From Roridomyces roridus (taxonomy: Eukaryota > Basidiomycota > Agaricomycetes > Agaricales > Mycenaceae): a DNA stretch of 64,000 bases. Below, in pieces: positions 28,601 to 61,165 of the stretch. The stretch is from NCBI GenBank assembly GCA_029378245.1, contig JARKIF010000071.1:1-64000 (forward strand). The letters run 5' to 3'. The notes beneath the pieces were generated by a model. That model made no database searches. It had not been told where the DNA came from and worked only from the letters and a program-made list of their open reading frames with translations. The position numbers were made by a program, and so were the translations under genes. The number at the start of each line of letters is the position of its first letter. The stretch's first letter is position 1.

Positions 28601-29284
28601 TCAAGCTGCGCCGGGTGCGAGAGCCAACGCGCTCTTCTTCTCCACCATGCGCATTCTTTGTTCTTGGATTACGAACGCTGCCATGATTTGAGGCTGAATA
28701 TTCTCCGTTCCGGGATACAAAACCAACGAGAGAGGCGAATTGCGAGCGGTCCCACGTTGCCAGTGAGCGATGGGTGTCCTGGGATCGTCTGGGGTATACA
28801 GCTGAAGTGATCACGACACTTGAGAGCTGATACACCGAGCTTTCCGGACACACGCACCGCCAATCGATATTCGCGATGCAACTTCAAGAGACATTGTCCT
28901 ATCGAGTCGAGTTCAATGAGATGAGCGACACTGCGATTGGTCAGAGTCTGGGGCAGCAGCAGCCCGCGTTTGCACATACTTTCCATCCACGGTACACTCT
29001 GCCATCCATTTCTTCACCTTCCACTCGCTCTGGTCACCCCTGACACGGGGGAACACAACGGTACTTGGGCGGACCACATTATGGCTAATTCGAGCCACGA
29101 CTGCCAGTGAATCGGATGTGCCTCTTTCGCTGATCTCGACGAGAGAGTCAAAGGGCCCTGTCGTGCACAGCTTATATCGCGCCAGACCGCCCAGATACAG
29201 GGTGCTGTTGTTCATGCTGTCGGGGAAGAAGGTGAGGCGGACTTGAGCGCGTGGAGCGAGAGCCAGGGCGGAATACATTGGCAT
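28601..29284 (-). CDS. DUF6593-type protein, copy A
   Basis: Exons 29284-28980, 28930-28858 and 28801-28601 join over introns of 49 and 56 bp to encode 192 residues. The pattern 'VRLTFFPDSMNNSTLYLGGLARYKL', 'PSTVVFPR', 'VKKWMAECTVDG', 'LALYTPDDPRTPIAHWQRG' and 'LVLYPGTENIQPQIMAAFVIQEQRMRMVEKKS' is that of the Agaricomycete DUF6593 family, a beta-rich domain of unknown function. The protein has the same intron positions as copy B at 49690-50355. I took the first ATG (29284) of the MPMY start. Confidence 0.8.
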
Positions 29285-29510
29285 TGAATGGCAGGACTGC
29301 CAGATTGGATGGGAGGCTGTAGATATGGGAAGCTGCCGCACCGTCCTCCGGAGTCCGCAGTAGAGCAGCTGATATTGGGTGCCTGGGCTATTCATGGCCG
29401 ATGTTCGAACATTGCTTGTTGGACAGCGGAGATCAAGGTGGGTGGCATCTTTGTGTTCATTTTCCAGCCTAACTGTCAAGGCTAGCTGACAATTGCAACA
29501 AACTATGTAA

Positions 29511-29938
29511 TCAGGCCAGCACCCTCCCCCAATCTGCCTCTTTGACAAACTGCGCCCAGCTCCGGGGTGGCCGCGCGACAAGTTGAAGCAGGGACGCGTC
29601 TGCCCCTGGCGGGTTGACTATTCGGTGTGTCTCGGTCAGTATGCTATCTTGGATGAAAGTTTGAATACAGAACGCACGCCCGAATTCATCCCAGTACTGC
29701 GCAAATTCGCATAAATCCTGCACGAGGTGGGGTGGGTACTTTGCTGCTTCCAGACGTGCCTTGAAATGCGAAAGCGGTACTTGTTCAAAGGTGACGTTCT
29801 TCCCCGTTCCTGAACATCATTACATCTTACTCGAAACAGGAAGCAATTGTGCGCACCTTTCGCAATTTGAGCCACGAGCTCCGCGTTGGAGATCAACTCC
29901 CCGTACGTGATGAACTCCCTCCCAGCAGGGAACTCGGG
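29511..29938 (-). pseudogene. NmrA-like protein gene, C-terminal half (separated by the 17.9-kb element)
   Basis: From the 9-bp target duplication, the minus strand reads 'PEFPAGREFITYGELISNAELVAQIAK'. It then crosses a 48-bp intron (29857-29810) into 'GTGKNVTFEQVPLSHFKARLEA' and 'WDEFGRAFCIQTFIQDSI', and ends 'WAQFVKEADWGRVLA'. This is the C-terminal third of an NmrA-like (HSCARG, atypical SDR) protein. It continues exactly the N-terminal part that ends '...AVLEMPEF' at 47804. The shared codons lie in the duplicated GAACTCGGG. No promoter or start remains on this side. Confidence 0.85.
29930..29938. repeat. Target-site duplication, left copy
   Basis: GAACTCGGG directly precedes the element end TAGTC; the same nine bases follow the other end at 47804-47812. 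Confidence 0.85.
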
Positions 29939-29967
29939 TAGTCCTATAGTAATCACGTCCCGTCAAC

Positions 29968-29998
29968 GGGCGTGCCGGACCTTAGGTCAGCACGTCAC
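29968..29998 (+). repeat. 31-bp terminal inverted repeat, left
   Basis: It starts GGGCGTGCCGGACC and ends CAGCACGTCAC. It is the exact reverse complement of 47696-47726. Confidence 0.92.
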
Positions 29999-30939
29999 GT
30001 GCGATGAGCGTGATCTCTCTTTCCAGCATCGTCTGGTCTCATTTCTCGCTCAGTAGACGTGTTCTCGGTGAGATTTAGGGTATGGAATATCTCCCGAGAG
30101 CCCTCAGAAGATAAAAGGAATATTTGAAGCCCAAGTAAACGACGGGTCTATAGTTATGTAAGTAGTATCTCCCTCAAATCCGATACCACTCAGTCCGAGT
30201 CGTCGCATTGCGTTTACATTGAGATTCTACCGCAGAGTAATGAAGCGAGCGATTCTCATTCGACAGTGGTGGTCGACGAATGTGGTATTTTTAAATTCCC
30301 TCGTGCTTCGGATTGCATTGGAATGAGAACGAGGTGCATTTAAAGCATCGACGACGGAATACAGGCACGCCGGGGCCCAACCATACCCCAAGTCTACCTA
30401 GAACTCGACCCTACCACTCCGCATCTCTGTTCCATGCTGCTAGCAAATCGCTCATGAACCAAGGACGAGCCCAAGGACGAGCACACCTCGTCCACAGTGG
30501 ACGGATGGTAGATGCCGGACATTATAAGAGCATTTTTCACAACAAATAATATGGTTGAGATTCTGACTGAAGGTATTGACCTTGTGGGGAATGGTTTGGG
30601 ATTTTTGCCTTGATTGAGCCTGATGGTTCATGGTTTGGAGGATGGTTTATCTTTGAGCTTGATGGTCTGGGCCTCTTTGCTTAGCTTGCTTCAAGGTTTT
30701 CAGTTCCAGCCAGCTGGTTAATGGATGTGCTTCCAGCTGTATGGTTCTGAGTCCGGACTCACTGCCCAATCAAGGTGGAGGTCTATGGGTCTTCCCGTGA
30801 CACTGTCCAACTCACATCAAAATTCGGATCAAACAAAACATTCTGAAGTCACTTCAGGCAGACATATTTAACCTCCGTATTGGGAAGTCTATGCTCCCTT
30901 GAAAGACTCCCCCAAAGGGCCTCCCGTAGCACCCACTTC
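29999..30939. other. MULE left subterminal region, no gene
   Basis: No open frame with motifs. Around 30545-30760 the plus strand is G/T-rich with repeated TGATGGT(T/C) and ATGGTTT words. Nothing else is visible. Confidence 0.4.
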
Positions 30940-31930
30940 ATCCGTGGTGCATCCGTGGCGGATGCATCCGCCTTCATCCTGGATAAGCTGGCGGATGCCT
31001 CCGGGCTTTCCTGGGCTACCGAGGCGGATGCCTCCGACCGTCCTGGCGTTTCTGTGGACGGACGCATCCGCCTGCCGCGCGTCGTGCGGCGCAAAACATT
31101 GTTTTTTGACAGGCTATTGGGTCCCTAGGAGCGCTTTTGCGCACACATGAGTCTTCTCAAACCCCGCGCGTAGCGCGTGGGGAAAAAATGGTTTCCGACG
31201 CAGAATCCGCAGGAAATCGTGCTATTTTGTGTGGCTTCCGGGGTAAGCGCGGCGCCAGAAAAATGGGTTTTGGCGCGTATTTAGACATCTTAGATTGCTG
31301 TTGCCAGCGTATCCCTCACAACGACGTGCCATTCAACGCAGCAGACGCCACTTCCAGACACCGCCCGCTACCAAATGTTCATTCAACCAGCTTGCAGATC
31401 CCAGTATTTTATTAGTTTCCCTTCTACTTGATGTAATCCTAATGCATACTTCTGATCTTTCTGTCTATGGACCACACAATAGTGTGCTACCAATTGTGGA
31501 CACATCATTTTGAATTTATGCCCTCGAAATGGTTCCCCCCTATCCCAAAAATTCAACCACGGATTTGTCCGCCTTCTCAACGATATGTGGGGGCGGGTGC
31601 GCCCGCCTGGTTCGAAATATGAAAGGCGGATGCATCTGCTTCAGAACACATCGAACAGGCGGATGCATCCGCTTCAAAACACATTGAACAGACGAATGCA
31701 TCCGGCTCCCAGAAAATTCCTGGCACGGAAGCGTCCGCCCTCTAAACAGTGTGTTGGGCGGATGCAACCGTCTGGTTCAAAATATCAGGGGCGGGTGCAT
31801 CCGCCTCAAAGCACGTTGAACAGACGGATGCCCCCGGCCCCAAAGAGGTTGAAGAGACGGATGCACCCGCCGCGTTGCAATTCCCATGGGCGGATGCATC
31901 CGACATGCAAGGAAGGACGTCCGCCACAGT
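30940..31930. repeat. Palindrome-cluster repeat, motif GGCGGATGCATCCGCC
   Basis: Variants of the palindrome GCGGATGCATCCGC and its half-sites (GCGGATGC, GCATCCGC) occur many times in two blocks, about 30945-31080 and 31590-31925. A motif-free spacer of about 500 bp separates the blocks. Open frames across it simply translate the motif. The two-block layout suggests the subterminal regions of one non-autonomous element, but I could not find its terminal repeats or target duplication. Confidence 0.7.
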
Positions 31931-32229
31931 TCCAGCCGGGAACACGCAATGATATCGCCTCCGGCAAGCCCGGCATCATCAGGCAAATCTCATGACTGGG
32001 TGTTAGCAAGGACTCTTTGCCAAGGAGGTGGTTAGTCGACTGTTGATCGGAGGTAAATCAAAGGTGGCACGTGGAACGAACAATACACCTGCTTTTAAGG
32101 CCATTGCTTACGCATGGCAATCCGAGTCTATGGGGGCCACGAGCAGAATTACTCATGGAGAAGGCCGCAGGCATGATGGGAGGGCGAGTGTGAGTCCCCT
32201 GGGCGCGCTGAGAATGTGAGGCAAGAAGG

Positions 32230-32621
32230 CAGTGTTCGCCCTGAAGGCCTTCATCCCGCATCCCGGTTCCCAAATTCCTGAAGGCCTTCGGAATGGCGAA
32301 GGCCTTCACCTGAAGGGCGGGCCGAAGGTCTTGAATGATTTTCCCACGCCTGTTGAATGGGGCAATCTGGCAGGCACCCGGACGGAATTTTTTGTGCATC
32401 CCTCAAGCCTCCCTGGGGCGTTCCTGTGTTGTTTCAAGCCACCCGCTCAACACATCCTCACCTACTTTTGGAATCGGAGTCCCTGCCTTTGCCCCCATCA
32501 CGTGACAGGTGAAGGCCTTCATCAAGGGCTCAGCGGCCAGGACCAAAAGTCCGAAGGCCTTGATGAAGCCCCGACTGAAGGCCTTCACTTCGGAAGGCCT
32601 TCGCCCCTCGGGAGAACACTG
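32230..32621. mobile_element. hAT-type MITE, 392 bp, with GAAGGCCTTC palindromes
   Basis: The left end CAGTGTTCGCCC and the reverse complement of the right end CAGTGTTCTCCC match at 11 of 12 bases. Identical 8-bp duplications CAAGAAGG flank it at 32222-32229 and 32622-32629. The palindrome GAAGGCCTTC or close variants occur at least seven times, near both ends. No coding capacity. It is inserted inside the large MULE. Confidence 0.9.
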
Positions 32622-32629
32622 CAAGAAGG

Positions 32630-33299
32630 ACCCAGAATTTTTTGATTTTTACTGCAGTTGCCAGTGACACAGTGCCGGCTGCGCGAATGACGATGTAGAT
32701 TCAGCGGCGAGACAAAGTTGGGGACGGAGTGTGGCCCCGCTGTGTGGGTTGAATGAGACAAGACAATTATGGCTTGCAGAGACGGGTACAAGGAATAACA
32801 AGAATTCAGGGATGTACTGGATGCACCCTAGGACAATGGCCCATAGTAAATACGAGGGATACTGAGTAGACCTGAGTCAGACTTGAGTATTGTTTATGAA
32901 AAGGATATTTTGTCGTTCGTTGGGGCAGTGACACGTACCGGAGCCTCGGACAAGTCGACGGAGATGATGTCACAGGTTGGCGAAATTGAGAGCAAGATGC
33001 CTGTGACAGTGTTTGTCGCCCAAGGTGGAACTCCAAATACATGTCAGTGAGCGGTCGATTCAAGGTCAATGTCGGATGCCAGGAAGGAAGAGGCGTGCCG
33101 AGGCTGTCGAGCAGCTGTCAACGGAACGGAATTGTCATCGGCTGTCAAACCGATGGACCCGTCCCGCGTCGGTCAATTCAAGGTCAAGTTCTGCGAATGT
33201 CGGCGGAGATGGAAACACCCAGGCCGGCGGAAGTAAGGCAAAGATGCATGTTACTGGTGTCAAGGCAAACGACAAAGAGGCAGCCAAATGGAGCCAGAA
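32630..33299. other. No recognisable gene
   Basis: AT/GC-mixed sequence with short frames and no motif. GTCAATGTCGG / GTCAAGTTCTG-like words repeat loosely near 33060-33190. Nothing more can be said. Confidence 0.35.
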
Positions 33300-33433
33300 T
33301 GCCCCAAAAATTACCCTAAAAGGAACTAATCCCAACACCGACACTGACGTCATCGAAAAAGTGCGACCCCATTCTCGCGGGAGAACGGCCGATAAAGCCG
33401 AGCTTAAAAATAAATTTTTAAGACTCGGAATAA
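33300..33433 (+). repeat. Dispersed repeat, copy 2 (also near 23520-23640)
   Basis: It shares an ordered series of blocks with the minus strand of 23520-23640: GTCATCGAAAAA, GACCCCA, CCGAGCTTAAAAATAA and TTTTTAAGACTCGGAATAA. The last two form an imperfect inverted repeat (CCGAG-CTTAAAAAT / ATTTTTAAGA-CTCGG). Confidence 0.6.
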
Positions 33434-34775
33434 GCGAACGGACAATGCAAAGTTGGGCATGTTTCGCGATTGACAGCGTTTTGATCTGATACGATGACTT
33501 GTCATTCGACGACCATCTCCTTCCCGCTTGTCATCTTGCACGCTTCCCGGGACCCAGCTTGCACCCCGTCCCCGTCTCAATCTTCCTCGGTGTTGACCCT
33601 CTCATCTCGAATCCTGACCATCATTCCCCATACAAACGAGCAGATGGAAAACAGGCCTCGTCACTCTGACGCTGCGTGCCATTGGGGCGCGCACCACCGA
33701 TTCGACGGCCACCTTTCAGAATGTATTGCAACATAAGTTGGGACCAAACTCGCGGCAGGGTGCGTCTCCTTCCGTTTCGTCCGGGTTATACCGCTGCAAG
33801 GTCTCCCTCCCCTCAGCTACACGCCGCCCAAACGCCGCCAATCACGGAGTACCTCTGACCTGCACCCCCTGCCACCACAACCACCGACGTGGTCGCGGCT
33901 CCAGTTGTGCCATATGTCTCCCGCACCAGCCTCTGCCTGATACACTGCGACGACTTCTGACCCTCGCCACCGCCATCCAATGGTCATTCCTCGACAAAGG
34001 AATATCTTGGTGGAACCAGTGATCTGTGGGCCTCCGTGAGTCATTGCCTTTCTTCTTTCCAGCGTCATTTCACCTGCTGCGTGGCAAGTATATGTATCCG
34101 CCATCGCCGTTCTCTCCCACTGCACGCATTTATTCTGACGATGAAGATGCTCTCCGGCGACATCTGTATCCGCGCGTTCTCACTCGATTCTTCCAAAATG
34201 ACCGATCCTGTCACCCTGATGACCTCACCAGGTGTTCTCAGAACCATACTGTACCGGTACCTTGACTAATTATAATGGGCGGCTCCGTCCCTAGCTTTGG
34301 CGAGGCTACGCAAATGCCAGCGGATGGACTGTTTCCCTAAAACTGGTATGTTTTGTCGTTTCGGTCGACAGTCAATTGTTCAACTTCTGTTTGGCCGCCG
34401 CTCCTAATAACTCTGACGTCCATCCTTGGTCTGTCGTACTCGTCCCAACTATCGGTCATCCGTAGTAAGTCTATTGACATTCTCGACAACTGCTCGAGCT
34501 CATCTCCAATCGAATAGATTCGCTCATCAATCGGGTCTGCACGATTATGGATCTGTTTCCAGGCATCAGCTCCGGATCCTCGCTCGCAAATCCGGTCATC
34601 CGGTCCATCCCTGGGTTTCTGCGCTGCAATGTATGTGCTCTGTTCTGCGTTCTGCTTCGCTGTTTGATTCATCGATCCAGTCAGGACGTCGTTCCATTTT
34701 CAATCTAGGTCATTGCCAGAGGAAGTTGTCGTCATCCAAGCAGCGGCTGCGTTTGAACTTGGGACAGTAACAATA
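33434..34775. other. No recognisable gene
   Basis: Several short frames in both strands, none with a recognisable domain, signal peptide or consistent exon structure. I see no repeat here. Confidence 0.35.
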
Positions 34776-35487
34776 TGAGAATTGTTGAACAATGAAGCGT
34801 CTGAACGTCACGTCTGTTTAACAGGACCGTTCGGCCCCGTGGTTGAACAGTTGCGTTTCGACAAAAATGTCAAGAGCGGGAGTCGAACGTGAGACTGCAG
34901 AGGGAGATAGTCAAGAAGCAGCGGTGCAACCGCTGCGCCAAGCAAGAGTTGAGGGTCAGTAGTTGTGATCGTATCCTATCCTGTCCCCTCAGCAGCTCCA
35001 CCGGCAAGAACTCAAATCTTGCTCAATTCAGTTGGAATGTATTAACGCCCAGGGTATTGAGTCTCTTTCATTCTATTCAGGGCCCGCACACCTCCTGCGA
35101 TAAACTGGGATTCCATTGACTCTTTGAGAAGCATCATTGCTGGTGGAATTGTGTTGAAAAGCAAGCAAGCTGAGGAGACTCGATCGAGGTCGCCAGGATC
35201 AAAAGGAACGAGGAACCTACATCGGTTGTGTGGCTCAATGTTTATGGCGCTGCCAGCAATATTTCATTGGTCATGTCCGTTTCGAGTCCCGCTGCATGTG
35301 TGCTTTTTAATGAGCAAGCACTGTTCGACCAAGTGCTGTTTAACCGAAGAGTTGAACAGTCGCCCTTTGAACCTGTTGAACACTTCTCAACCTCTCGATC
35401 CTGCTCCTGATCCTCGCCCCTCGGCGCGTTCAACCTCCCTGTTAAACACACGAGACGTTCAGACGCTTCATTGTTCAACAATTCTCA
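34776..35487. mobile_element. Long-TIR element flanked by TA, 712 bp
   Basis: The left end starts TGAGAATTGTTGAACAATG and the reverse complement of the right end is identical for 34 bases, then similar for about 15 more. TA dinucleotides flank both ends (34774-34775; 35488-35489), as in Tc1/mariner-type insertions. GTTGAACA/TGTTCAAC words recur inside. A tRNA-like Pol III promoter lies near its left end. No transposase frame is visible. Confidence 0.82.
34868..34953 (-). other. tRNA-like Pol III promoter (SINE-like) inside the TIR element
   Basis: On the minus strand, an A-box-like TTGGCGCAGCGGTTG is followed about 40 bases later by the B box CGTTCGACTCCC. The segment starts like a tRNA, but I cannot pair an acceptor stem, so it is a tRNA-derived sequence rather than a functional tRNA. 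Confidence 0.5.
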
Positions 35488-35489
35488 TA

Positions 35490-38312
35490 TAGATTTATCT
35501 TGGGATGTAACCTGAAGTCATAACACGCCACCACGCGCATCTCGTATTCCAACTGACCCCAAGTATGTAATTAGATCTTCTACTTCTCAAGCCATTATCA
35601 TACCGATCGACTTGTTTGGACTCCATGCACGCCATGATCACAGCACACATGGCATTTAGTATACCACTTGTAATCTTGGAATAAGTTAATCGGGCCAGCG
35701 GGGCATGCCGCAGAAAGCGGCGTGAAGACTGCTACACCCCTCCAATTCAAGTTCCAGATCTGCTGTACATAATTAGCCCAGATGCATTGGAAAATCTCTT
35801 GTCGACTGGTTTGAGTAAAATTCCGGTACCCATGTCCATTGAACTGTCCCGGTGAAACGGAAATTAGCACCGTTGGTGGGAGAACACTCATAGGCGAGAT
35901 GATTCGCACCCGGGTAGGGCACCATTCGAAGTTTATTTGAATATAACAGTAGTATGTAGATGAGGCGCCCTACAGTTGAACGACCGCGGGCAACTGAACC
36001 CAAATCGTATTATATCAGCTAGCTATATCCGATCCTACGATGGAGTCGCAAAGTTCTCAAGTACGACCTAAGGAGAAGAAAACACGAAGCCTCGAGCCCG
36101 CAGAAAAACGAGTTGCGCATCCAGACCCGGCCTTTGCAATTCAATTATTTACTACTTGCTAACTATTATTGACCGGTCGACCCCGCCTCTGCAACGTCGA
36201 TTGAGGCTGAGTCTCGAGCACAGTAGCAGTCGTCGAAACTGAATCCAAGGATCTAGGTACCCAAGTTCGTCAGTTGAATACACTGACCCATTGAAAGGCT
36301 GCGATACTGTCGAATGTTCGAATGTTCTACGTTCAAGGTATGAGAGGCATCTGCATCGCAATGACCGTGGACATCGGGGGAACCAGGGGTAGAATTGAAC
36401 TGAATGTTGAAGGCAGGCGTTCAAATTGCTGTAGACAAACCACAGTACTGCCCGTTGCAGTGAATAGTCAGTGCTTCCACACGCCCATCGGAAACAAAAA
36501 AGGAATGGAAGACCGCTCGCTGCATCATCTACTACTGGTTGGTACCTAACGCCATTGAAAGACTACGGCCCCCAGCGCATTGTGCTCCTCACGTAACTTG
36601 ATCGCAACTGGGAGAAGTTGACCTAGCCACCGATCGCACCCATATCTTTCCTTTCGACTCAGAGGAATCGAATGGTCATTGTTTTCTGGACTGAATCTAA
36701 CACACGATAGCCTTCATTGAAATTCAATCCAAATGTATAGGTTCTGTAGGTTGGATAGATTAGACTTGCAGATTGAAAATGATACGTTGACATTCATCTG
36801 TGGTATACTACCACACGAGCAGTTTGTACCTACGTCCCCACAGACGGCTTTTTCCCCGATGCTCAGTGTTGAACGTTGAAGGCACGCTGAGAGAGGCAGG
36901 CCTTGTAATTCACGCCGACACCCGGCATATGGTTAGCGCTTATTGAGGAGTGAAATGGATTACATACTATCTATGAGGAGCGTCGACACCATGAAATCAG
37001 TGAGATAACGACATCGACCAAAAAACATACCCGGACAACTCGGGATACCTGTACATATACACCGTTGAAATTCCTGCAAGGTTCAGTAAAAACAGCGAGA
37101 GGCAGCGCAGGAAAGTCTACAGGCTCGTCGAGTGGGAATAAGAACATACATACACACACCATCGACCCGCACCACCACCAAGCAGGAATCTCCCGAGCCA
37201 ATCAAGGTAAAGTTGAGTCATCGCAGTCAGAGAAGGGAACTAGAAAAATACGACAGTGTCTGGTCAGAGTAATGCAGCGGCGGCGGACAGACTCACAGAG
37301 GAGAAATTGAACGAGACTGAATGTATGAGTGACCCACATGAGCAATGTAAAATCAGGAATTTGGGCGAAGGTGGCGCGGATACACCCATAGGAGGAGAAG
37401 AGGGAGGTGTAACCGTCTACAAAGTCGAGGCTGGTCAGCCTGTTCAGAGTCGTGAGCCCCGCGGTTGGAGAAGGACCGGGTGAAACCGATTCTGAGGACC
37501 TTGGTGTGGCCTTTGCTAGAAAAAAAAGACTGATATAGATGTAAGGCACAAAGGGTAAGAACACGCACACGCTCAAGCCAGCGGCGGTCGTTTTCGGGCC
37601 ACCCAGGTCGTTCGTACCTGTGGTGCAGTCAGTTGGGAGGCGGGTCGAATGAACGGACACGACAGACCGAGGGAAGGAATCATGCGACTGAAATGTGGTT
37701 GTCGGCAGTGGTGATAATCTGCGACGGCCCCGCCCACGAGTTCTGTCAGGAAAGAGACACCAAGTTGAGCCTATGAACACGACGCACCCAGCGAGTATTT
37801 CCTCCACACATCATCCTCGGGATACAAGCTGCGCCCGCTGTTGAATGTCTGGACGCGATCGTCTCCCGACGACGCCGTTGAACATCTTGAGAGGTAGATC
37901 GCGGCCAGTATGTCACAGTGCCGAGGGTACAAGTCAGTCACAGAGGCACGGAGGCCGTTGCCAGACAGCCCGACTGAAAGCACAGAGACGCGCCTGCAAC
38001 ATTTTCCCGTCAATGTACTCAAGTGTGATGGCTGTACGGTCGGAGAAGTCATCGACGAGCGAGGATGGTAACGGTGTCACCAAGGCGTCACCGAGATCAT
38101 GGAGGACACAGTGGCATGGGTAAGTATCCTCCGCAGCAGCGCGGGGAGCTCACCTCACTGACGCGCGTCCGAGGTGGCATGGCGGTTGTTGTGATCTCAA
38201 GAGTCGTCGTGGTGTAGTTTTTCGAGGAGATCTCCAACGCGCGAGAGGAGGGAGGCTATACGGGAGCGAGAGTCAGAGGTGGTGGCACTGGTCCTGTCAG
38301 ATGGCAATCGGA
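35490..38312. other. No gene that can be named
   Basis: Minus-strand frames at 35598-36003 ('FNGHGYRNFTQTSRQEIF', 'CPAGPINLFQDYKWYTKCHVCC') and 37202-38110 (hydrophobic 'FLPFVPYIYISLFFLA', 'LLMWVTHTFSLVQFLL') have some protein-like features, but I find no consistent set of exons and no known domain. GTTGAA/TTCAAC words are frequent from 36.2 to 36.9 kb. Confidence 0.35.
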
Positions 38313-41300
38313 TCACCGATCACAAACGTGTACGCGTAAATCTTTAATCAATTCAAGGCCCTGGACTAGCGGTTTGAACTTGAACGAAGCGAGTGCCTTG
38401 GTGAAAATATCCGCTGTCATTTCCGCAGTCGGACAATAGATGACGTCGAGAGTCCCGTTCTCAATCTGCTCGCGAATAAAATGGTAGCGTATGTCGATGT
38501 GCTTGGTTCGAGCGTGAAATTGACCAAGTTCCGCATGCGCAAGAGCAATTGCTGACTGGTTGTCATTGTAAATCCAAAATGGTATGTTGATAGGTCCAAA
38601 GAGTTCTGCGAGAAAATATCTGAACCAAATTGCCTCCTTCGCCGTGTATGTGATGGCAATGTATTCGGCCTCCGTCGTGGAGAGCGAAACAATCTCTTGC
38701 TGTTTAGATGACCAAGATACGGCAGCGCCGTTCAAAACAAAAGCATATCCCGATATCGCCTTGCGGTTCTCCATTGACATCCCGTCGGCGTCGGCATAAA
38801 TATCCAATCCAAGTGTTGTATCAGAAGCACTGTATCTGAGTGCAAGGGTTCGAGTTCCCTTCAAATATTGGAGTACACGCTTGGCTGCGTTCCAATGAGG
38901 TAGGCCAGGATTGTCCACAAATTTCGATAAGATGCAGACTGCAAATGCAAGATCTGGTCGAGTGGCGGTTGATAACCAAACAAGTCCCCCAACAAGCTCG
39001 CGGTATGGAATGCTGCGCATGTCCGCGGCGGTCATGGAGTCGGCAGGACACTGGTCTCGGCTCAGTTGAACTGTTGGATCGAGAGGGACGGAGACCGTCT
39101 TGCAGTCCGTCATATTGAACTTCGCCAGCAACGAATCAATGTATGGTGTCTGCGACAGTTCCAATATTCCCTTCTCACGGTTGCATTTGACTTCCATCCC
39201 TAGAAGCCAACTAATCGGTCCGAGCATTGTGATCTTGAACATCTCGGAGATCTTGTGTTGAATTTCGTCGATGAATGCCGGAGAATTTCCCGTAATTGTA
39301 CTGTCGTCGATGTGGATGGCCAGGAGTGCAATATCATCTCCTCTAACGGCTCGATAGACAGCGTGGTCTGAATGCAAAGGGTAAATTCCCAGGGTCGCGA
39401 GAGAACTCGTAAGTTTCTCGTACCATTTGCGGCTTGACTGTTTGAGTCCATAAATTGTACGTTGAAGCCGAATAACTTGAGCCGAGTTGCCGTTGGAATA
39501 GTGAGGTGCTTGTTCCATATAGATTTCTTCGTCCGGGCTGAATTCGCCGTTTAAGAACGCCGCCGAGAAATCAAATACTTTGATATCCCAGTTGTAACGC
39601 GCGGCTATTGCGAGAATCGTGCGGAGTGATGCCAATTTGGCTGTCGGTGAGAATGTTTCGAAATAATCTACGCCAGGGACTTGAGTGAACCCACGGGCGA
39701 CGAGTCGAGCCTTGTATTTGTCGATTTCGCCGTTGGCTTTGCGTTTGATCCGTAAAGCCCATTTGGATCCGACCACGTTCCGATCAGCCGGACGTGTGAC
39801 TAAGCCGTCACCAAACGTGCCTGTCCTCTTCATCGCCTCCATCTCCGCGTCCATTGCGACCTTGAACTCTGGCCAATCGTCTCGGTTCATCGCCTCTTCC
39901 ACCGTGGGTGAGTCCGACATGCTCCCCACTCCGACATACGCGAATGCCGGCCCTATCTCGTCCAGTAACGAGTCTTCCGTGGCTGCCAGGTGTGCGGCCG
40001 TGCGCCGTGTTCTGGTGCCTTCCACAATGTTCTTTGGGTCGATATCACCACAAATATCGCGCGGAGCGATTGTCTTCGGCCTTTCTGGTGTACTTGGGGG
40101 TGTCGAGAGTGGAGATTCACTCGGAGGAATGGGATTGGGGTCTTCAAACTGAGGTGCGTGCTGAATGCTCTGTGACTCCTTCCTTTGCTCATTCTCTCCA
40201 TTCTCCCCCTCATTCAGCACCCGGTACAATTCGCCTCCGCTTCGTTTCACGTCTGGAAACTTCACACTGCGCTCTACGCGGATGGCGCGTGTGTCTGGGT
40301 AGTAGATCCGGCGGCCGTCGATGCTATCCGGGTCAAATCCTAGCCATCGTCCGTCCCGCGATCTTCCGTCGAGCTTGCCCTTGTCGTCTACGTGTACGGC
40401 GACGTGGCAGCCCCATTCGTGGATATGGCGCAAGTCTGGCTTCGCCTTGTGGAATACCTCGTAAGGTGTACGTCCGCCAAGAATCCGTGTTGAGGTACGA
40501 TTCTTCAGCCAGACTGCATGCTTGAGTGCTTCTCCCCATAGGTTCTTCGGCAGTTCTGCTGCGTGCAGCATTGCCCGCACCTTCTCGAGAAGCGTGCGGT
40601 TAACTCTTTCGGCAATTCCATTGTGCTCGGGAGTATCGTGGACGGTGTACCGTCGGCGTATTCCCTTCTTTGCCAAATACTCATCGAATTCCCCATTTTT
40701 GTATTCGCCACCGTTATCCGAATGCAGTATCTTGACCTTTATTCCGTGCTCCTTTTTCCATCGTGCGTCGACATCTTGAAATGCGTTCAGAGTCTCGTCC
40801 TTTGAGTGCATGAGGACGATGACGGTGTAGCGCGATGCGTCGTCCGTGAACGAGGAATAGTACTGCTTCTTCTGGGGTGTTGCGAGTGGCGCTGGTCCCC
40901 ACACGTCGGTGTGAACTTCGTCGCCAACCTTGGTCGCTATCTCGCGTGGAGTAGCCTTCGATATCGCCTTGCGAGTCATCTTGCCGTGCAAGCATGACTT
41001 GCATTCCTTCGTAGAGGTACGTATCGTCTCATCTAATTCAATTCCGTTGACGTTCTTGACTAGATTCTTCGCCGCTTCGAGGGGTATGTGTCCCATAAGT
41101 CGGTGTAACTCGTCCGCGGTCGTAACCAATGGACCAATGTCCGCGAGATTTGCTTGTCTCGTGGCTGTTGCTGTATTGACTGCGTACAGTCCGTGCGTTC
41201 GTGGGATTGCTCCAAGTCTTCGGTGTTGAGGGTCATAAATGCGGCACTCCGCGTCTCGGAATTGGACCGCGTAGCCCGCCTTGGTGATGCACCCAATCGA

Positions 41301-42674
41301 AATTAGCGTGACACCCATTCGAGGTACGTACAGCACGTCCTTCAATAACACCCTTGTTGACCTCTTCCCGCCGTCGGGAACCTCAATATGCATTTCCCCG
41401 ATTCCAACTGCCTGCAGCAGCTTGTTGCCCGCGGCGACAATATCGCGTGGCGCAATTGCACGGAAATTGAACAGTCGATCTCTCGACGCCGTCATGTGTT
41501 GGCTGGCGCCGGAGTCGTAAAGTTCCCGCTCTTGTATCCGGGTGGTGGTGACTGTTGCTGCGACGAGTTCGTTCGAGGTAAGTGACATAGTTGCTGTTGA
41601 CTCGCCCTGTTCTTCCTCGCTACCCCGCGGCTCGGCGTCCGCACTCGATGTCGTGGTCTCCGGCAGAGCCAACCTGTCGTAACAGTCGCTCTCCATCTCC
41701 AACGCATCGTTCTCTTCTTCAAAATTCAGGTCATCCTCCAATCCCCGTTGGAACGCCATCCAGGCCGCTTCCAATTCGTCGGTAACCGCCATGTTTGCTC
41801 GGTTCCAATTCTTCTGATGAGGGTTCTGTCCCTCCTTTCCTCCTCCCTTAGCCCAACATTCCTTCATCATATGTCCCTTCTTGTGACAATTATAACATTC
41901 CACCATCGTCTTCTTCGACTTCGACATATACTTGTTGCCGCCCGTTCCGTAGAACGCGGCTTCCTTCTCGCCCTTCGACGTAGGTCGTGCACCCTTGCGA
42001 TCGGCCTCGTCACTTATTCCTTGCAATACAGTGTCGGGATCGAGAGTCTTGCCAAGAAGCGTGGCGGCGCCCGTGAGCGCCGATAGGTATGTTTCGTACG
42101 ATGCTGGCAGGGATCCGAGGACGATAGCGACAAAGTTATCGTCTCCGGGGTCGGCGGCCATAGCGACTAGGTCCGCCCGAATGGTTCGTAATTTGTTGAG
42201 GTGAGCCTTTACATCTCCCCCTTCTACGCAACGCTCGTCTTGGAGCTTACGTCTCAAATCCACCGTAACCATCTTCGACTTCTTCTCGAATTCATCCTTC
42301 ACCCTCTCCCACATTGCTCTTGCACTTGCCGCATCCTTCACCTTCAAAAATAGCGAATCCGGAAGGACGGAAGCCAAGCCTTGCTTGATAATAGCCTGCT
42401 CCGATTTCCAGACACGCCGACGTGCAAAATACGCGTTCATAGCTGTCGTTTCTGCCGTCGTTGGTGCTGCAGCGTCAGCAACGGTCGGCGCTGTTGGTTC
42501 CGCCGCCGTGCCCAGTGGTCCTGCATCAAAGTGGTCGCTGAGTCCCGCCGCATCCAATGCGAAGAGAAAGCGATCACGAAAGAAGACCCAGTTCGTTCCG
42601 TCAGCCTTGCATCCAGGGAGCTTCGTAAAGTACTCGCCTAGCTTCGCCGTCGAGGACAGTGTGTTTGTTGACAT
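38313..42674 (-). CDS. copia Gag-Pol polyprotein, intact, 1453 aa
   Basis: One open frame covers all copia domains in order. These are an N-terminal gag-like domain ('[23 protein letters not shown]'), a zinc knuckle [14 protein letters not shown] near residue 262 and a protease motif 'YDSGASQHM' near 385. Integrase follows with H-H-C-C ('HRLMGH...CKSC') and acidic residues in 'TDVWGP', 'SDNGGEY' and 'ERVNRTLLE'. Then come reverse transcriptase ('[14 protein letters not shown]', active site 'IHIDDS') and RNase H ('[10 protein letters not shown]', '[14 protein letters not shown]'). The RT core reads HIDD instead of the usual YVDD/HVDD, and the RNase H 'DADWA' is 'DADGM'. Length and continuity suggest a recent insertion, in contrast to the copy at window start. 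It lies antisense to the MULE transposase. Confidence 0.93.
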
Positions 42675-43107
42675 AGAGAGGTAGGTCCGAGAATCAAAGT
42701 ATATCTATAAACGAAGGTGAGTAATCAAAAATCGGTCGTCATCGTCGTATACCACGTGTAACGACGTGCGCTAAATCAAAGTCAGTTCTTGAACGATTCA
42801 GGCTGATGAGGATGATAAGGCACAGGAGGACCGTCGATGGGTATCAGCGTCGGGGGCCAATAACCTGTAGAAATATATCTGTAGCAGCTTGGTACGCAGA
42901 TGGATGAAAGCACTTGATTGCATTAGGGTAAGAACGCTGGGGCTTTTATACCCAGCGGTACAATGACGTATGTACATACTACGTAGTTGGAATGAGGCTC
43001 GGGGATGGCTCGGTCTCCCCTCGGGCAGGGTTCGGGCATCGGCCAGCAGGTTGAACCCGAGCTCTACGTCATAGCCTCGTGTTCGGTTTGCTCTCAACTC
43101 CAACAAC
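42675..43107 (-). repeat. copia leader and possible 5' LTR (about 43107-42867)
   Basis: On the minus strand a candidate LTR starts TGTTGGAGTTGAG (43107), contains a TATA box GTATAAAAGC near 42950 and ends near TTTCTACA, followed by GGTTATTGGCCCCC, which could be a primer-binding site. The leader then runs to the ATG at 42674. No matching copy follows the stop codon at 38313, so the 3' LTR is missing or unrecognised. Boundaries are tentative. Confidence 0.4.
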
Positions 43108-44458
43108 TCATCCGGAAGTGAAGATGAGGCCCCTGCAAAGGATAAATCTGTCTCTACTGGTTCTGGGTGAGTGTACGAGCTCGCATCCCTTTGGAATACT
43201 ACATTAAGCTCCTTTTTTTTGCCCACAGCATTCGAGAATGGGACCCATGGCCGAGTGGCACGTGGAACGAGAAATATAAACGCCGATACTACGACGAGTG
43301 CAAGTTTACGGTCCATTGGGCTTGCGAGGCGCGCGGGTCGGGCAAAAACGAGACCGGAAGTAAAGACGCAGAGACGGAGCATGGCGCTAAACATGTGCAT
43401 CGTGTGTGCCTCGGCGTGATGAAGTGCACAAGCGCACTCTGCGAAGTCATCACGCGGCCACAGACGAAGCAGAGTGGAAGAAATCAGCAGCTCGACAATG
43501 GCTGCTCGTGCGGCCATCCTTTGCAGTGGCACGGCTGCGACGCTGAGATGAAATATTGGGTCTGGCGGAACGGCGCTCGTTTCAAGCATTCTGGATATCA
43601 CAACCACGAGCCGCCCCCGACTCGTCATCTAACTGCTGCAGAGCGCGCGCGCTTTGCCAAGATGGTCAAGGCGCATCCTCGTGTCGGCCCCGCCAAGTTG
43701 ATCGCCGGGATACCAGGTGTTGATGGGCCTGGCGAGTCGGTGCTCGATATCAGCCCCGTTTTTGTCAACCCTCAGCGTGTCCAATACGAACGGGCCAAGA
43801 TTCTCAAGCCGGCGAATTCTGTGCGTGCCAATATCACTGTTGTTCTCATCTTCTGATTTCTCCCAGACTCGAGACGAGCGTCTTCTACCCAAAATCCGAC
43901 TGCTCCAGGAGCAAAACCCGACCTGGACTATTGCGCTTCATTGGGCCGACAAGATACACATGATTATCTTTCAGTCGCCCTGGCAGCACCGTATGGGTCT
44001 CCAGGATATGATCAAATCCGAGGCCGTGAATGGAACAGTCTCGGATGCGTGCCACGGTTATTTCCTAGGAAACAACCAACTCTTGTTTATCAGTTCGGCG
44101 TTCGACCCCATCCATCTCAAGTCGTGGGTTCCGATCCTCATGACGTATTCAAATGGTGCCAAGACTGTCAACTATCGCATACATTTTCTACACCTCTTCC
44201 GCGGCATGGCCCGGGAGTGCCAGGCGAGAAGCCATGCAGTTACGGACAGGCTCTTTGCGAATGTGAGTCATGTTCGTCCGTTTTATGACCAGGCTAACAG
44301 TTCAAATCTAGGTTGTGGATTTTAGCGACGCGCAAAGAAACGGCTTCATCCAAGCCTTCGTTGATTTCTGGCTGGAATTTTCACCCGAGGCAAGAGACGA
44401 ACGCGAGTTACTTCAAGCAGCAGAGGGTCTTTTGAAGGGCTGCCGGGGCTCCAGATGA
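43108..44458 (+). pseudogene. MULE transposase, N-terminal and catalytic part, truncated
   Basis: An exon ends at 43166 ('SGSEDEAPAKDKSVSTGSG'), followed by introns 43167-43228, 43821-43866 and 44263-44311; frame is kept throughout. The first domain is a WRKY/GCM1-type zinc finger, known at the N-terminus of fungal MULE transposases. It shows 'YRRYYDEC', 'CLGVMKCTSALC', 'RPQTK' and 'CSCGHPLQWHGCDAE', ending 'FKHSGYHNHEPPP'. The catalytic region follows: 'VSDACHGYFLGNNQLLFISSAFDP', 'LMTYSNGAKTVNYRIHFLHLF' and 'VVDFSDAQRNGFIQAFVDFWLEF'. It stops at 'LLKGCRGSR' (44458), short of the family's usual end. No start codon is seen; the copia element abuts the first visible exon. Inactive as it stands. 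Confidence 0.75.
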
Positions 44459-45965
44459 TGTATGTGCTCTAAACCTACTATAGAAATCGACAACACTCGA
44501 AGAATCTAACCAGATGAGTCGAGATACAGACGAATCTATATCCAACTAACCCAATCACGAAGCTCCGGGGCGAGTGACAACTATTGAATAGCGGGAATGT
44601 GGCGAGTATAAGTCCCTAGTACAGGGCCTTGTAAAGGTTGTAGGGAATTGGGTGATATAGTCTCGGATACGATGTCGAAACAAAGTATTGTGAATTGAGA
44701 TCCTTGATATGAACCAAGAATGACGATTCTAAAGCGTTTTGTAGATGGTAAAGCTTCACAGCTAACACAAAAGGTAGATTGAGTTTGGCTAAAGCCGGGT
44801 TTTGCAATAAAGCAGGTATTTGGGTCTTTCGATCCCTTTCACACTGGTATCCGAAGACGACAGCGACCGATACAACACGGATTTCGTAGATTCCAACACT
44901 TCACAACTCTGAACACACAAATAACCCTTGACAGACACACGGTACGACACAATCCAACAGATACTGATTCCAACACCCTGATTCACACTCAAGTCACACA
45001 CACAATAGCCAACAAACAAATGTTTAGATTTTCAATAGCGATTGCTTAACTACGCAATGCACCGTCGAAAGCCTCGGACAAAACCCTTGATCGCAGCTGG
45101 TAGCTTGCTAGTGGGGGAAGTATCCGCTGCCCTCTTGGGTAGCACTCTATCTACTTTATACAGGTCCGAGAATCATATGATAGTACAAACGAATGGCGCA
45201 ATAATTAGAAATGTCCTTGGTATCTGGAATGGAAACACCCTGATTGGTTGATTAGAACCGGCATCGTGTACGGCCGGTGTGCCAAGCCATGATTCCGCGT
45301 GGCGGACCTGTCGATCCGTGACTCCAACATTGATCCATGACTCGACTGATTTTAGTGAAGTCGTATCCGACCTCTCCCTTGATTGTATACCCTCCAGACG
45401 TACACCCATAGGTTGTAGGTCCAGAACGATACCCATATCTCCGACTACCTGTCCCGGATACCAGCGGATACTAGTTCGAAGACTAGTATCCGACCCGGAT
45501 CCTCCTTGTCCCGACTGCTGATGACAACTACGTCACTCCCTTCGGACCCGCTTCGGCGGTCTACTCATGTTTCAGGCTTTTCGGCCGACCTGCCCATCAT
45601 CCCGTGAACTTCCGAACCTCCGAATTGCACTCGCACCAAGGTTCGAACAGCTGACAATCGTACAACGGTTAAGAACTTGTTTAATTGGTGTATCCCATTG
45701 GTAGAGCAGGTATCCACAACTCCTACATGTTTCGGAGTGAGCCCGTCAGTCATATTCAGGTAAATACCCTTCAACCCGTACAGTACTCTTAAGTATCCAC
45801 CACACTGACTGTCTCTGGGCTCAACATCAGTCTTGTACTGAGATGACTTAGCTAGGATACTACCTTTGAAATCGTGCAAAACACGCGTTTTCAAGGGCAG
45901 TCAATTTCCATGCTTATCAGCGGCGACACAGGGTCTTGGCAGTCGGGTGAGCTCTGTTACAAATT
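44459..45965. other. Unclassified insertion between transposase parts
   Basis: About 1.5 kb without a recognisable domain. The ends look like TGTATG...GTTACA (on the minus strand TGTAACA...CATACA), as a TG...CA LTR-type unit would, but I find no target duplication. An 11-bp-arm hairpin (CGGATACTAGT / ACTAGTATCCG) lies at about 45461-45488. Minus-strand frames at 44616-45019 and 45565-45894 are open but unrecognised. Confidence 0.4.
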
Positions 45966-46499
45966 TTGGCCATTCAACACAACCTTGAAGAGCCGCTGGA
46001 TCTGAACGGTGACGCTTACGAAGACCTCGTCAATGGGCACATTGAGTCGCTCAGCATGGACAGAGGGGAAGCGTTTCGAGCTATGTATATGGCCACAAAA
46101 CCGAAGTTACTGTCTCATGCAAAATTCTGGGACAGAGCAGCATTTGTGGAAGAGTGCGGAGAGTTCATCATCAGCCACGAGCTGAACGATGGAACATACC
46201 GGCCTGCGACCTACGGACGTGTGGCACCACCGGAAACTCGGCGACCCCGTATAGCCGTGGTGATTTCCTCAGACGAGACGTCGAAGCGCACTTCACGCAA
46301 CCGCACGCGACGCCGAGCCGAGGATGAGGGCACCGATGAAGATGCTCCGCCTGCGAAGAGACCGGCACAATCAAACAGGGAGCTGAGGCCTCGCAACCAG
46401 GGAGTTGTCGTGTATGCACCGGTCGTACCTCCCGCACCTCCCGTGGATGAAGCCAAAATTACGGGACGAGGAAGGGGGTGGGTTACCATGGAAGAGTGA
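45966..46499 (+). pseudogene. Probable C-terminal part of the MULE transposase
   Basis: The frame opens without an ATG and reads 'LNGDAYEDLVNGHIESLSMDRGEAFRAMYMATKPKLLSHAKFWDRAAFVEECGEFI', a helical region, then a basic/acidic tail ('SRNRTRRRAEDEGTDED', 'PAKRP') ending at 46499. The lack of a start, its strand and its place after the truncated catalytic part suggest it is the C-terminus of the same transposase, cut off by the insertion at 44459-45965. I do not recognise the sequence itself, so this is inference from position. Confidence 0.5.
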
Positions 46500-47695
46500 G
46501 GGCAGTGGATCGGAGTCATGGGAATCAACGAGTGGCGGGTAGTTACATGTACTTAATGTGTATTTCCTCGACTGAAAGTCATTGTATGTATTGTTTGGAA
46601 TCAGGGAGTGTGGTGCAAGTTGAGCACAGGGACCTGGATGCCCAGGGTCCCGAGCGTATCACATCAACGGTGACGGAAGTGATCATGCAACTAGTGCGGT
46701 GCTGCCTCGGCGACAAGAAAGTAGTGCTGCGGCAATGCGCGTAGGTGACGCGGCGGTCGTATATGGGTACGCGGCGATGGTATGGCGGTGCCTGGCGATG
46801 ATATATTGAAATATGGCGCTGACGCGGCTCCACTCGGCCGACGCGGCGAAATATCCGTGCCCATTCTCGTGGCTCAAGCCTTGAAGCATCAAGGATAATT
46901 CAACCAAAACCATCAACCATCCACCATTTATTTTTTTGTGATAAATAACCTCATAGGACATGAATGGCAATCGAGCGGCGGAGGAGCGCTGCGCTTTGCT
47001 GAAGCCGAGTTGAGTGGCTGGACAGATCGGATGGCAGAAGTGCAAGCCAAGATCGTGGAGATGTGACAGTCGCTGTCAATTTAGCATCTTCTCTCCCGGC
47101 GGCGAGGCTGCACGGCTGTCGTGGGCAAAAGCCAAGCGTGAGGAGCTCAACTGTGAATGCAGGAAGCCAGGCGGCGACGGGAGGATGCAGATAGATACTG
47201 GCGGTGGGAGGGGTTGGGGTGCGTATACTGTATACATGGCCGACGGAGAGGCGGGTGGTGCTGCAAAAGGTCGAAAGGGCCATTCGGGGTCTCAAGCGGT
47301 TGATTTTGAGGTAAAATAACGAGCCTTGGCCAGGTTCTGTAAAGGAGAGATGTGGAAGCAGAATGGTGGCAGCGACTGCGACGCACCAAGGTCCCCGAGC
47401 CTGTCAGAACCGGCTCAAAATAAGCGCCCACCCCACTGTTCCATCGCCCCGCCGATAATGAGGTCCATCCTAGTCGAGAGAGTGGACACCAGTTGTCCAA
47501 ACGAGTCGTTGCTGGGGCAGCTGCCAGGCGACAGTGGGGACTGGCGGGATGGTCGTTTTCAGGCCGGATTTTGGCGCAGACCAGCTTCATATATGTTTTA
47601 GAGTCGAATGGGAGTCGTTTCAAGGTGGATTGCATGGGCAAAGCGGGCGTATTGAGGCGGGACAATGGGGAGGGAGCGGACAGCACGGATATCAT
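46500..47695. other. MULE right subterminal region, no gene
   Basis: No frame with motifs. Around 46740-46850 the plus strand has loose ~21-bp repeats around ACGCGGCG(A/G)T and ATATGG. The rest is unremarkable. Confidence 0.4.
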
Positions 47696-47726
47696 GTGAC
47701 GTGCTGACCTAAGGTCCGGCACGCCC
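47696..47726 (-). repeat. 31-bp terminal inverted repeat, right
   Basis: Exact reverse complement of 29968-29998. Outside it, TTTACTA matches the TAGTAA of the left side in reverse complement. Confidence 0.92.
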
Positions 47727-47746
47727 TTTGGCATGGCGTGTTTACT

Positions 47747-47793
47747 ACCAGACTATATACAACTACTTGTTCGTCAGTTGTATATAGTCTGGT
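47747..47793. repeat. Hairpin with 18-bp perfect arms near the right MULE end
   Basis: Arms 47747-47764 (ACCAGACTATATACAACT) and 47776-47793 are perfect reverse complements around an 11-bp loop. The left element end has no counterpart, so it is an addition between the outermost TAGTC and the rest of the terminal repeat. Confidence 0.88.
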
Positions 47794-47803
47794 CCCGAGA
47801 CTA

Positions 47804-47812
47804 GAACTCGGG
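47804..47812. repeat. Target-site duplication, right copy
   Basis: GAACTCGGG directly follows the element end GACTA and equals 29930-29938. Confidence 0.85.
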
Positions 47813-48515
47813 CATCTCCAACACAGCTCGCACGAACAACCCATAATCTCGCTCGATATCGATGACGGGGACCAACGTCTCGGCGCGCATGGGCCAGGCA
47901 ATCACGTACTCCCCATCGGCACGCTTTTCGGCACTCGTCGGCCCACCCAGGTAATTCGAGGCGTAATACCCTGCTTGGACATCTACGAAAGGGACCCCGC
48001 AGGTGCGTCCGTACGCCGTGATTGCAGCTTTCCCCTCCGAGTGCAGGATGTTGCGATATTTTCCAGAGGTGAGGGCGGCGATAGGTGGCAGGCCGGACCA
48101 GATAATGCCGCGGATGCCGGAAGGTGAGGCGGTGGCCGCAGCGTCGATGAGGAGTTTGCCTTCCGCAGTTTCCCGAGAGACGTCGCAATGTTCGAGGAAG
48201 TTTGTTACAAGCTCCGGGTCTTGTCGTTAACTCACTTTCCTTGAACAGAATGGTGGACTCACAAAAGCGTAATCTGCGCCTTTGAACGCTTCGAAAACCT
48301 TTTTCCCTATTATCCACGGTGAGAGAGACTTCGACGACGTCCACACCGCGGTCAGCCAGAGAGCGCGCCGCAGGTTTGGTGCTGTCGCGTGTGAATGCAC
48401 GGATGCGATACGCCTTGTCGGACTCGGCGAGCGCGGCGACGACACTGCCGCCTTGATTTCCTGTGGCGCCGACGACGGCCACGAGTGGGGCGGATGGGTC
48501 CTGTGTGATGGTCAT
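47804..48515 (-). pseudogene. NmrA-like protein gene, N-terminal half
   Basis: The ATG at 48515 starts 'MTITQDPSAPLVAVVGATGNQGGSVVAAL', with the Rossmann glycine motif GATGNQGG that binds NAD(P). Next come 'YRIRAFTRDSTKPAARSL', 'VFEAFKGADYAF' and 'PELVTNFLEHCDVSRETAEGKLLIDAA'. Further motifs are 'IRGIIWSGLPP', 'VPFVDVQAGYYASNYLG' and 'VPVIDIERDYGLFVRAVLEMPEF', followed at once by a TAG made by the element end. An A5 run (T-run 48300-48304 on plus) shifts the frame before 'VFEAFKG'; four As would restore it. The first intron lies near 48262-48220; its exact junction is unresolved. NmrA-like proteins are redox sensors or transcriptional co-regulators without dehydrogenase activity. The protein would lack its C-terminal third. 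Confidence 0.85.
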
Positions 48516-49689
48516 GCTGTGCGCGTGGAGTTTGCAAAGGCGCGAGTATATATGCCAATGCACCATGCCGACGGACTTACCAATCACTCTTGGTTTAATG
48601 ACAGAGTTGTAGCGATTCCGCCGTTGATATCACAGAATCCTATCAAATTTGATGGCGGCGGTGCACGGCAACTTTTGATCGCAACAACAAGTGCCGAAAT
48701 CTGCCGCTCAGCGAAAACATTTCAAGTCAAAGGAGCTGCGTTCCAGACAAATACCATTGGGCGAGTATTCCATTACATTCTCTACGCTACAAAATCCGGT
48801 TGGCAAGTACATACAAGCAGAGAGGCAGATGAAATGGTAGGGACGGATGTGCTTCGGGACTCTAGGCCGGACGGCGGACGGCGAGGAGCAGCCTCGACGC
48901 ACCCAGACCACTACATAGCCAACAACGCCCCGCTGCAGCCGTATCCGTGCGCCTCACCTCATGAGGGCCCGAGGCTCATGTGGCGAGGAAGACACGGACA
49001 CTAAGACGTGTTCGCCTCGACGACGGGCGACGGCGTGTGCAGCGGGGAAGTGGTAGCCGAAGGGGAGGCAAATGGGGTGTCTCAGCGCCAGCGACCAGCG
49101 CCGCCTGAGAAAGAAGAGGCGAAGGGAGCACTCACCGTCACACCTCTACCCAGCGGTCCCAGCCCCAGCTCATTTGCCCGTCCAACGCGTAAGAGTGGCA
49201 TTGTTCGCATGGAGGCATTATTACGGGCAGGTGATTAATGGGCGAGCATCGAGAAGGGCATGAATGCCGCACCTAGCGTCATCAATTGCACACATTGCGA
49301 GGTCGAGGGCCGAGGGTCCATGCGAAGCTCATGGCGGGCGAGTACCGACGCTTTTGAGACCGGTGACACTGAGAAGGCAGAAAGACGGCTGACGTCGATG
49401 ATAGACGGCGGGGTGTAGCGAGCGTGGTGTCGGGGTGTGAGGGGAGGAAAGGAATGACGTTGTTGTCTCATGTTTCGCTTGACGGCTCTTGTCGGCACCC
49501 CTGACTGAGATCAAGAGCTGCCGCGTGCGCCGGGATCAATTTCTCCAGATCACATTTGATATCAACTGCGGAAATGCAAAAGTGTAATGACAGTGCTTCT
49601 CCGCTTCGGCCCAAATGTCATCACTTTCGCGTAGTATCGGCTCCGAGTCCCGCTCACAAGCCGAAACCCAATACTTGATTCAAACATAT
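48516..49689. other. No recognisable gene
   Basis: Upstream of the NmrA N-terminal half and downstream of the DUF6593 copy B. Short frames only; no repeats or motifs seen. Confidence 0.4.
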
Positions 49690-50355: not shown

Positions 50356-50888
50356 TCAGGGAAGAGCGAAGAGCCGAAAGAACTGGAATTTGTTCATATA
50401 CAGAGACGTGACAGAAAGCTGTGGCACTGCCTGCACGGCGGGGACACGGCGAAACCAGCTGACTTGCCAAGTGAATTGTTTAAATTTGGTGGATGCCGCC
50501 GAGCTTGTGCGAATATCACAGCGGCTTAAGTGAGAGGAGATAGTCTGGAAGCATACTGTTCAAGTTTCAACAAAGCAAGGTCGCATGCGGCATCAATCCT
50601 CGGGATCAATTCCGATCGAAGTGATTTTCATCCAATTTGATCCGTCGCTTACGCCTCTTGTCCCGAACTCTCACCTCTGTTCTTCCTGCTCGGTGTTCCG
50701 CACGTCCATATGATATGGGCAACCCCGCCGTGGGCGCGGCCATTCCCGGATTCATCTTACTTCCGCCGCTTGCCACCCGCTTGTGAACTGACACAACTGA
50801 GCCTGAGAACCATGCTTTGTACTCCTCCGTGCTTCTCGGTCCCTTGCCGGTCCATTTATCATGCCAGCGCTCTGTCATATCGACGACC
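50356..50888. promoter_or_regulatory. Divergent intergenic region, DUF6593 B / P450
   Basis: 533 bp between genes transcribed away from each other. No TATA box is convincing. Frames here are antisense noise. Confidence 0.4.
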
Positions 50889-61072: not shown

Positions 61073-61165
61073 ACTCTTCTCTAGCTCAGTTGGTTAAGGT
61101 GTCTGCCATCCACTCTCCCTGGATGACACCAGGAGGTTTTGGGTTCAATTCCTCCTTGCTGCATT
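61073..61165 (+). other. tRNA-like sequence with A and B boxes (SINE-like)
   Basis: TAGCTCAGTTGG at 61082-61093 is a perfect A box and GGTTCAATTCC at 61142-61152 a perfect B box, 48 bases apart as in tRNAs. The outer bases do not pair as an acceptor stem, so I call it tRNA-derived rather than a tRNA gene. Confidence 0.6.

Follow-up and report, generated by a model that had tools for sequence, protein, structure and literature searches.

In the genome of the agaric Roridomyces roridus (Mycenaceae), an NmrA-like gene is split by an insertion of 17.9 kb, which raises the question of what entered the gene. The original prediction took the insertion for one large Mutator-like element (MULE). We analysed a window of 64,000 nucleotides around it (C471:1-64000) and searched the genome, 90.8 Mb in 501 contigs. 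The best explanation overall, to which we assign a probability of about 0.8, is a ~1.4-kb AcademH-like, non-autonomous insertion (element A) that was swollen by nesting, and whose right end has at times inserted one-endedly. The features that delimit the insertion, and its empty counterpart on contig C257, are as follows.

29930-29938, left copy of the 9-bp target duplication GAACTCGGG, present as a single copy at C257
47804-47812, right copy of the 9-bp target duplication GAACTCGGG
29968-29998 (left) and 47696-47726 (right), 31-bp perfect inverted repeat
29511-29938, minus strand, 3' part of the NmrA-like gene
47804-48515, minus strand, 5' part of the NmrA-like gene, with the start codon at 48515 and a one-base insertion in exon 1

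The tips of the insertion are TAGTC at 29939 and GACTA up to 47803; together with the nine identical flanking bases and the 31-bp perfect inverted repeats, they lie exactly where they had been predicted. The NmrA-like reading continues across the gap, and the proposal that both halves belong to one gene is borne out by C257. Apart from its own locus, the left flank (28400-29938) matches the genome only at C257:351008-352511 (96%; 2 of 2 candidates scored), and the right flank matches C257:352503-353299 (95%), the two matches forming one contiguous place and overlapping by nine bases. The sequence there reads ...CAGCAGG GAACTCGGG CATCTCC..., so that the same assembly holds the uninterrupted gene with one GAACTCGGG that had been suggested as a check. 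Its product is deposited as P0012, an NAD(P)-binding protein of 323 residues, identical over the part queried. Two paralogous NmrA halves are ruled out, since C257 is contiguous across the site. Window positions 50500-53507 and 62547-64000 also match C257 (95%). Tfb4 is expected once per haploid genome and is present on two contigs of this assembly; because of this, and because the match to C257 continues, both haplotypes appear to be at least partly represented there. The gene had also been called a clear knock-out, which is correct for the window copy, interrupted by the insertion and also carrying the one-base insertion relative to C257 (within 48265-48515), but not for C257, where the gene is uninterrupted.

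Two observations concern the surroundings of the gene. Just upstream, at 48605-49585, lies a 981-bp insertion with an 8-bp duplication, AATGACAG, whose first ~600 bp match several other places in the genome at 96-99%; it is absent from C257, so the window copy was hit twice. On the other side, frames at 25736-27471, adjoining the gene, resemble a membrane transporter as judged by eye.

To what kind of element do the outer ends belong? The two parts of element A, and a short repeat where they meet the inner sequence, were defined by comparison with a copy on C223 (L039).

29939-30522, plus strand, left part of element A, starting TAGTCCTATAGT; 89% over 588 alignment columns to L039
46956-47803, plus strand, right part of element A, ending CCCGAGACTA; 95% over 865 columns to L039
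30517-30522 (left) and 46956-46961 (right), GGACAT, 6-bp duplication flanking the inner insertion, single in L039

L039 is 1,407 bp long and gives one contiguous alignment to q1-584 plus q17018-17865, where q is the window position minus 29938. A C212 copy, in L040, is likewise contiguous across the junction where the window carries 16.4 kb. Since GGACAT is doubled in the window and single in L039, positions 30523-46955 were inserted into a ~1.4-kb element. Element A is thus a ~1.4-kb element, later enlarged by 16.4 kb of nested transposons, and the view that it is large for its superfamily does not hold for the mobile unit without its nest.

A genome search for further copies of the ends, as had been recommended, revealed a family of relatives, mostly of 1.3-1.4 kb. 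At least 41 matches were found to the left end (40 of 63 candidates scored) and at least 50 to the right end (40 of 117 scored); these are not copy numbers, as the left query also catches right ends through the inverted repeat and the right-end count takes in the hairpin described below matching itself inverted. From the match lists, rather than from all matches, we chose 24 elements with both ends (the window element, 21 in L039-L058, L070 and L071); perfect 9-bp duplications flank 20 of them, and L042 has one with a single mismatch. The right tip of A sits 48 bp past an inner TAGTC (47755), which is where the left end aligns. Within L040 (C212:449500-455300), one family element has inserted into another, and a perfect 9-bp duplication flanks each of them. 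In L041 and L055, ~480 and ~220 bp of additional sequence separate the hairpin unit from the canonical right tip, as though the point where tip and hairpin meet were an insertion target.

What fills element A is a succession of other transposons.

30523-30848, plus strand, left part of nested element B, terminus TATAAGAG
46863-46955, plus strand, right part of element B, terminus CCTCATA
30850-32087, plus strand, left end of nested element E1, terminus CACTTCAGG; 97-99.6% to C79:652909-654211
32088-33429, plus strand, 1.34-kb insertion in E1, not in the C79 copy
33430-38361, plus strand, remainder of E1, 99% to C79:654211-659105; right end lost
38362-43105, minus strand, copia-type long terminal repeat (LTR) retrotransposon, of which one LTR (42866-43105) and a long gag-pol frame remain, the second LTR and 32 bp having been lost
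43106-44445, plus strand, first piece of element X, with GCM-type zinc finger and transposase fragments; 99.6% to C24
44446-45922, 1.47-kb transposon within X, with 97-99% matches at C124, C62, C458 and many other places
45923-46862, plus strand, second piece of element X; 46179-46862 99.6% to C24, 45923-46178 without a C24 match

These blocks match different contigs, in agreement with the prediction that other transposons are nested in the insertion. Element B has matches at 22 other places; its copies span 770-783 bp at C190, C491, C109 and C366 and are longer at some others, and ~350 bp have been lost between its two parts in the window. The C79 copy of E1 measures 7.5 kb and has a 7-bp duplication, CGTTTCT; a Pfam scan of three E1 frames gave no protein family, one weak match being taken as chance. 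No duplication was seen by eye at the E1/copia and X/B junctions, so deletions probably joined these pieces of the nest. A broken WRKY/GCM1-type transposase had been assigned to the large element; a GCM-type one does lie inside, but it belongs to the nested X and not to A. Its protein has 31 homologues, mostly unnamed Mycena proteins and one named GCM domain-containing protein, and matched no Pfam family, MULE included.

The transposon family must therefore be decided by the end sequences and their relatives, not by the coding content between the ends. L070 (C468:111475-117715; 6,241 bp) lies within the 9-bp duplication GAGACATGG, and its first 12 and last 18 bases are identical to those of the window element. 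On one strand it encodes a DUF6589 protein (PF20231, E 9.2e-95) and, in two frames of the minus strand, DEAD (2.1e-10) and Helicase_C (1.8e-9) domains. The frames of L071 (C109; 8,029 bp) match those of L070 by eye. Intact tips and a duplication occur together in one coding element only, L070. The domain scan covered five frames of L070 and found DUF6589 and helicase domains only; no MULE transposase with A-type ends was found there. Searched against the genome, the DUF6589 protein of C468 (P0001) is matched over nearly its full length at C468 and C109 and in part at C472, besides more distant relatives; the 11 proteins found with it, inside or outside the R. roridus genome, are from Agaricomycetes, and the literature searched made no mention of DUF6589.

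MULEs make target duplications of 8-10 bp, and AcademH transposons reportedly make them of about 9-10 bp. With MULE/MuDR the A family has its 9-bp duplications in common, as well as a GCM-type transposase nested inside, but no MULE transposase was found linked to A-type ends, and the Mutator-like identity gives way to that of the coding element with the same tips. The Repbase rule unites in one superfamily elements that have the same duplication length and match terminally over positions 1-11 (PMC4455052); the window element and L070 both have 9-bp duplications and share their first 12 bases, and the rule thus groups them. The helicase together with the 9-bp duplications suggests that the A family is AcademH-like rather than MULE, a candidate label at this stage. 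AcademH elements encode a helicase and occur in Basidiomycota (PMC10799480); like them, the A family would be a cut-and-paste system of basidiomycetes with a helicase, and its 20 perfect 9-bp duplications in 24 elements fit the duplication length ascribed to AcademH, but the literature consulted does not allow the terminal hairpin and solo ends described below to be attributed to that group. Putative non-autonomous MULE and Academ elements are widespread in Marasmius oreades, likewise an agaric (PMC8290104).

The right end of element A has a structure of its own.

47747-47793, plus strand, right-end hairpin, an 18-bp perfect stem (47747-47764 / 47776-47793) with an 11-nt loop, 10 bp from the tip
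47756-47803, plus strand, 48-bp unit beyond the inner GACTA tip, found alone elsewhere with 9-bp duplications

The hairpin is present in all 23 aligned right ends (11 distinct rows), where 97.5% of cells are paired, as against 17.5-33.1% with slid partners, and changes on both sides occur at 3 of the 18 stem pairs, in L053/L054 and L070/L071. Folded as DNA, the right end gives a z of -5.5; the left end differs and is less striking (z -2.9).

Is this end ever found without the rest of the element? Its core, ACTACTTGWTCGTCAGT, occurs at 59 exact sites and 11 with one mismatch, and the reversed control at none. Right ends found in the right-end search account for 26 of these 70; the other 44 are an upper bound for stand-alone sites, as that search was incomplete, and we read four of them. 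At three, a solo end lies within a perfect 9-bp duplication: 50 bp between copies of GGTCTTGTG at C135 (L073), 48 bp between copies of GTGTACATG at C1 (L074) and 51 bp between copies of CGACGAACC at C224 (L053:2212-2262). By comparison, none of the 26 attached right ends has such a duplication, and the chance of a perfect nine-base match within the 61 positions scanned is ~61/4^9, or ~2 in 10,000 per site. Folding of the 48-bp unit gives two stem-loops, of 9 and 6 bp, that adjoin each other; the L053 copy folds no better than shuffles (z -0.9). The three duplicated copies differ in loop, arm and start base, which favours separate births. A limited literature search on one-ended, solo or hairpin ends found no earlier description of such units. 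Tentatively, and at less than even odds, we propose that the hairpin right end of this eukaryotic, helicase-encoding cut-and-paste family is a functional module capable of inserting alone, in units of 48-51 bp with complete 9-bp duplications; one-ended transposition that stops where the hairpin begins would produce them, or else the module is itself a transposition unit of exceptionally small size.

The history that we envisage would begin with a ~1.4-kb non-autonomous DNA transposon of a DUF6589-plus-helicase system entering the NmrA-like gene on one of two homologous copies and producing the 9-bp duplication. The small transposon B would then have landed in A with its 6-bp duplication, after which E1, X, the copia element and the 1.47-kb element would have accumulated, with partial deletions among them, up to the present 17.9 kb. 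The transposase-helicase machinery, in this proposal, uses the hairpin right end asymmetrically; occasionally, only the right end would join the target and the remainder would be lost at the hairpin base, leaving a 48-51-bp solo hairpin end within a perfect 9-bp duplication. We infer the one-ended insertion, the mobilisation by C468-type machinery and the AcademH affiliation. As such, the insertion is unremarkable: a metabolic gene was hit in one of its copies by a small transposon, which nesting then enlarged. More weight attaches to the solo hairpin ends. Should they be products of one-ended insertion, they would document how DNA is cut and joined by a little-studied, helicase-carrying system and would hint at the reason for a helicase in such a transposon. 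If the right end is indeed a module that can insert alone, strand unwinding with a terminal hairpin, known from Helitrons, would also act in a system that makes target duplications.

The size of the insertion could be explained otherwise. A single 17.9-kb Mutator-like element moving as a unit with its own broken GCM-type transposase would account for the 9-bp duplication, the inverted repeats and the transposase inside. We strongly disfavour it, because no second whole copy was seen, the 17.9-kb query matching separate blocks on different contigs (39 of 691 candidates scored); because same-end relatives mostly measure 1.3-1.4 kb, and the two closest, on C223 and C212, have no interruption at the 6-bp repeat; because X has its 99.6% copy at C24, with 7 kb there that show no match to the outer ends; and because the pieces tested contain no MULE Pfam domain. 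Nor do we give much credit to the reverse history, in which the large element is ancestral and the 1.4-kb relatives are its deletion derivatives: non-autonomous copies do often arise by internal deletion, but the 16.4 kb lie between the copies of a 6-bp duplication, whose sequence occurs once in L039, and between both ends of the multicopy B, and this order of events is very improbable.

The solo ends leave more room for debate. They could be a self-standing mobile unit of 48-50 bp, a micro-MITE (miniature inverted-repeat transposable element), that A acquired at its right end, a reading favoured by four matches in which homology starts at the same base (query base 13) and by the number of hairpin cores, at most 44 of 70, away from the right ends found; since the three duplicated copies differ in arm or loop and begin at different bases, two of the solo versions are also present among longer elements, which again favours separate births, and 48 bp would seem very short for the pairing of two ends, we consider it unlikely, although a serious competitor. 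Somewhat more doubtful to us is that full-length insertions later lost everything to the left of the hairpin by deletion. Palindromes promote deletions, and the TA that occurs at the left tip and again at the hairpin base might serve as microhomology, but in each independent copy the deletion would need to have ended precisely where the target duplication and the hairpin base lie.

Several points weigh against the history of one-ended insertion from an AcademH-like family. For the hairpin, further pair types, one of five measures, were not above shuffles (228/500), the outermost stem pair is broken in four distinct rows, the support is drawn from few changes among the 11 distinct rows, and mutation that perfects palindromes could yield the same pairing pattern. 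The fourth stand-alone site (C124, L072) has no duplication, and neither have three of the 24 elements, L046, L052 and L071; L071, the second coding copy, also has an altered left tip. Mobilisation of A by a C468-type element is suggested by shared ends only, and the AcademH label depends on the helicase plus the duplication length. The structure predicted for P0001 from 11 sequences has a mean pLDDT of 40 and so shows no catalytic core. Finally, C257 could be a segmental duplicate instead of the other haplotype.

Other known systems resemble the A family in part. Helitrons insert without target duplication, and a Helitron identity was rejected because of the 9-bp duplications. Helraiser has a 19-bp palindrome 11 nt from its end (PMC4778049), comparable in layout only to the 18-bp stem that lies 10 bp short of the tip here, and in both cases the autonomous element encodes a helicase. 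Unlike Helitrons, the A family has inverted terminal repeats besides its target duplications, and no HUH nuclease was found among the frames scanned. The KolobokH duplication is TTAA, whereas that of the A family is 9 bp. Fungal KolobokH elements do carry a RecQ helicase, and KolobokP leaves solo terminal repeats with target duplications (PMC9587614), in which respects the two resemble the present family; the KolobokP solo units, however, are long terminal direct repeats with 3-5-bp duplications, in place of one 48-51-bp hairpin end with 9 bp. Single-ended transposition of piggyBac, in which, as proposed here, only one transposon end joins the target, was seen in plasmid assays (PMC3952818); the cases described here lie in the genome, within perfect duplications, and have the hairpin base as a boundary.

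Further repeats lie downstream in the window. A ~1.06-kb element at 53501-54560, absent from C257 and with 98-99% copies elsewhere, matches itself inverted at ~66-68% and is thus a long imperfect palindrome, and 60527-61838 holds an inverted pair, ~0.77 and ~0.46 kb long, of a repeat that is present more than 20 times.

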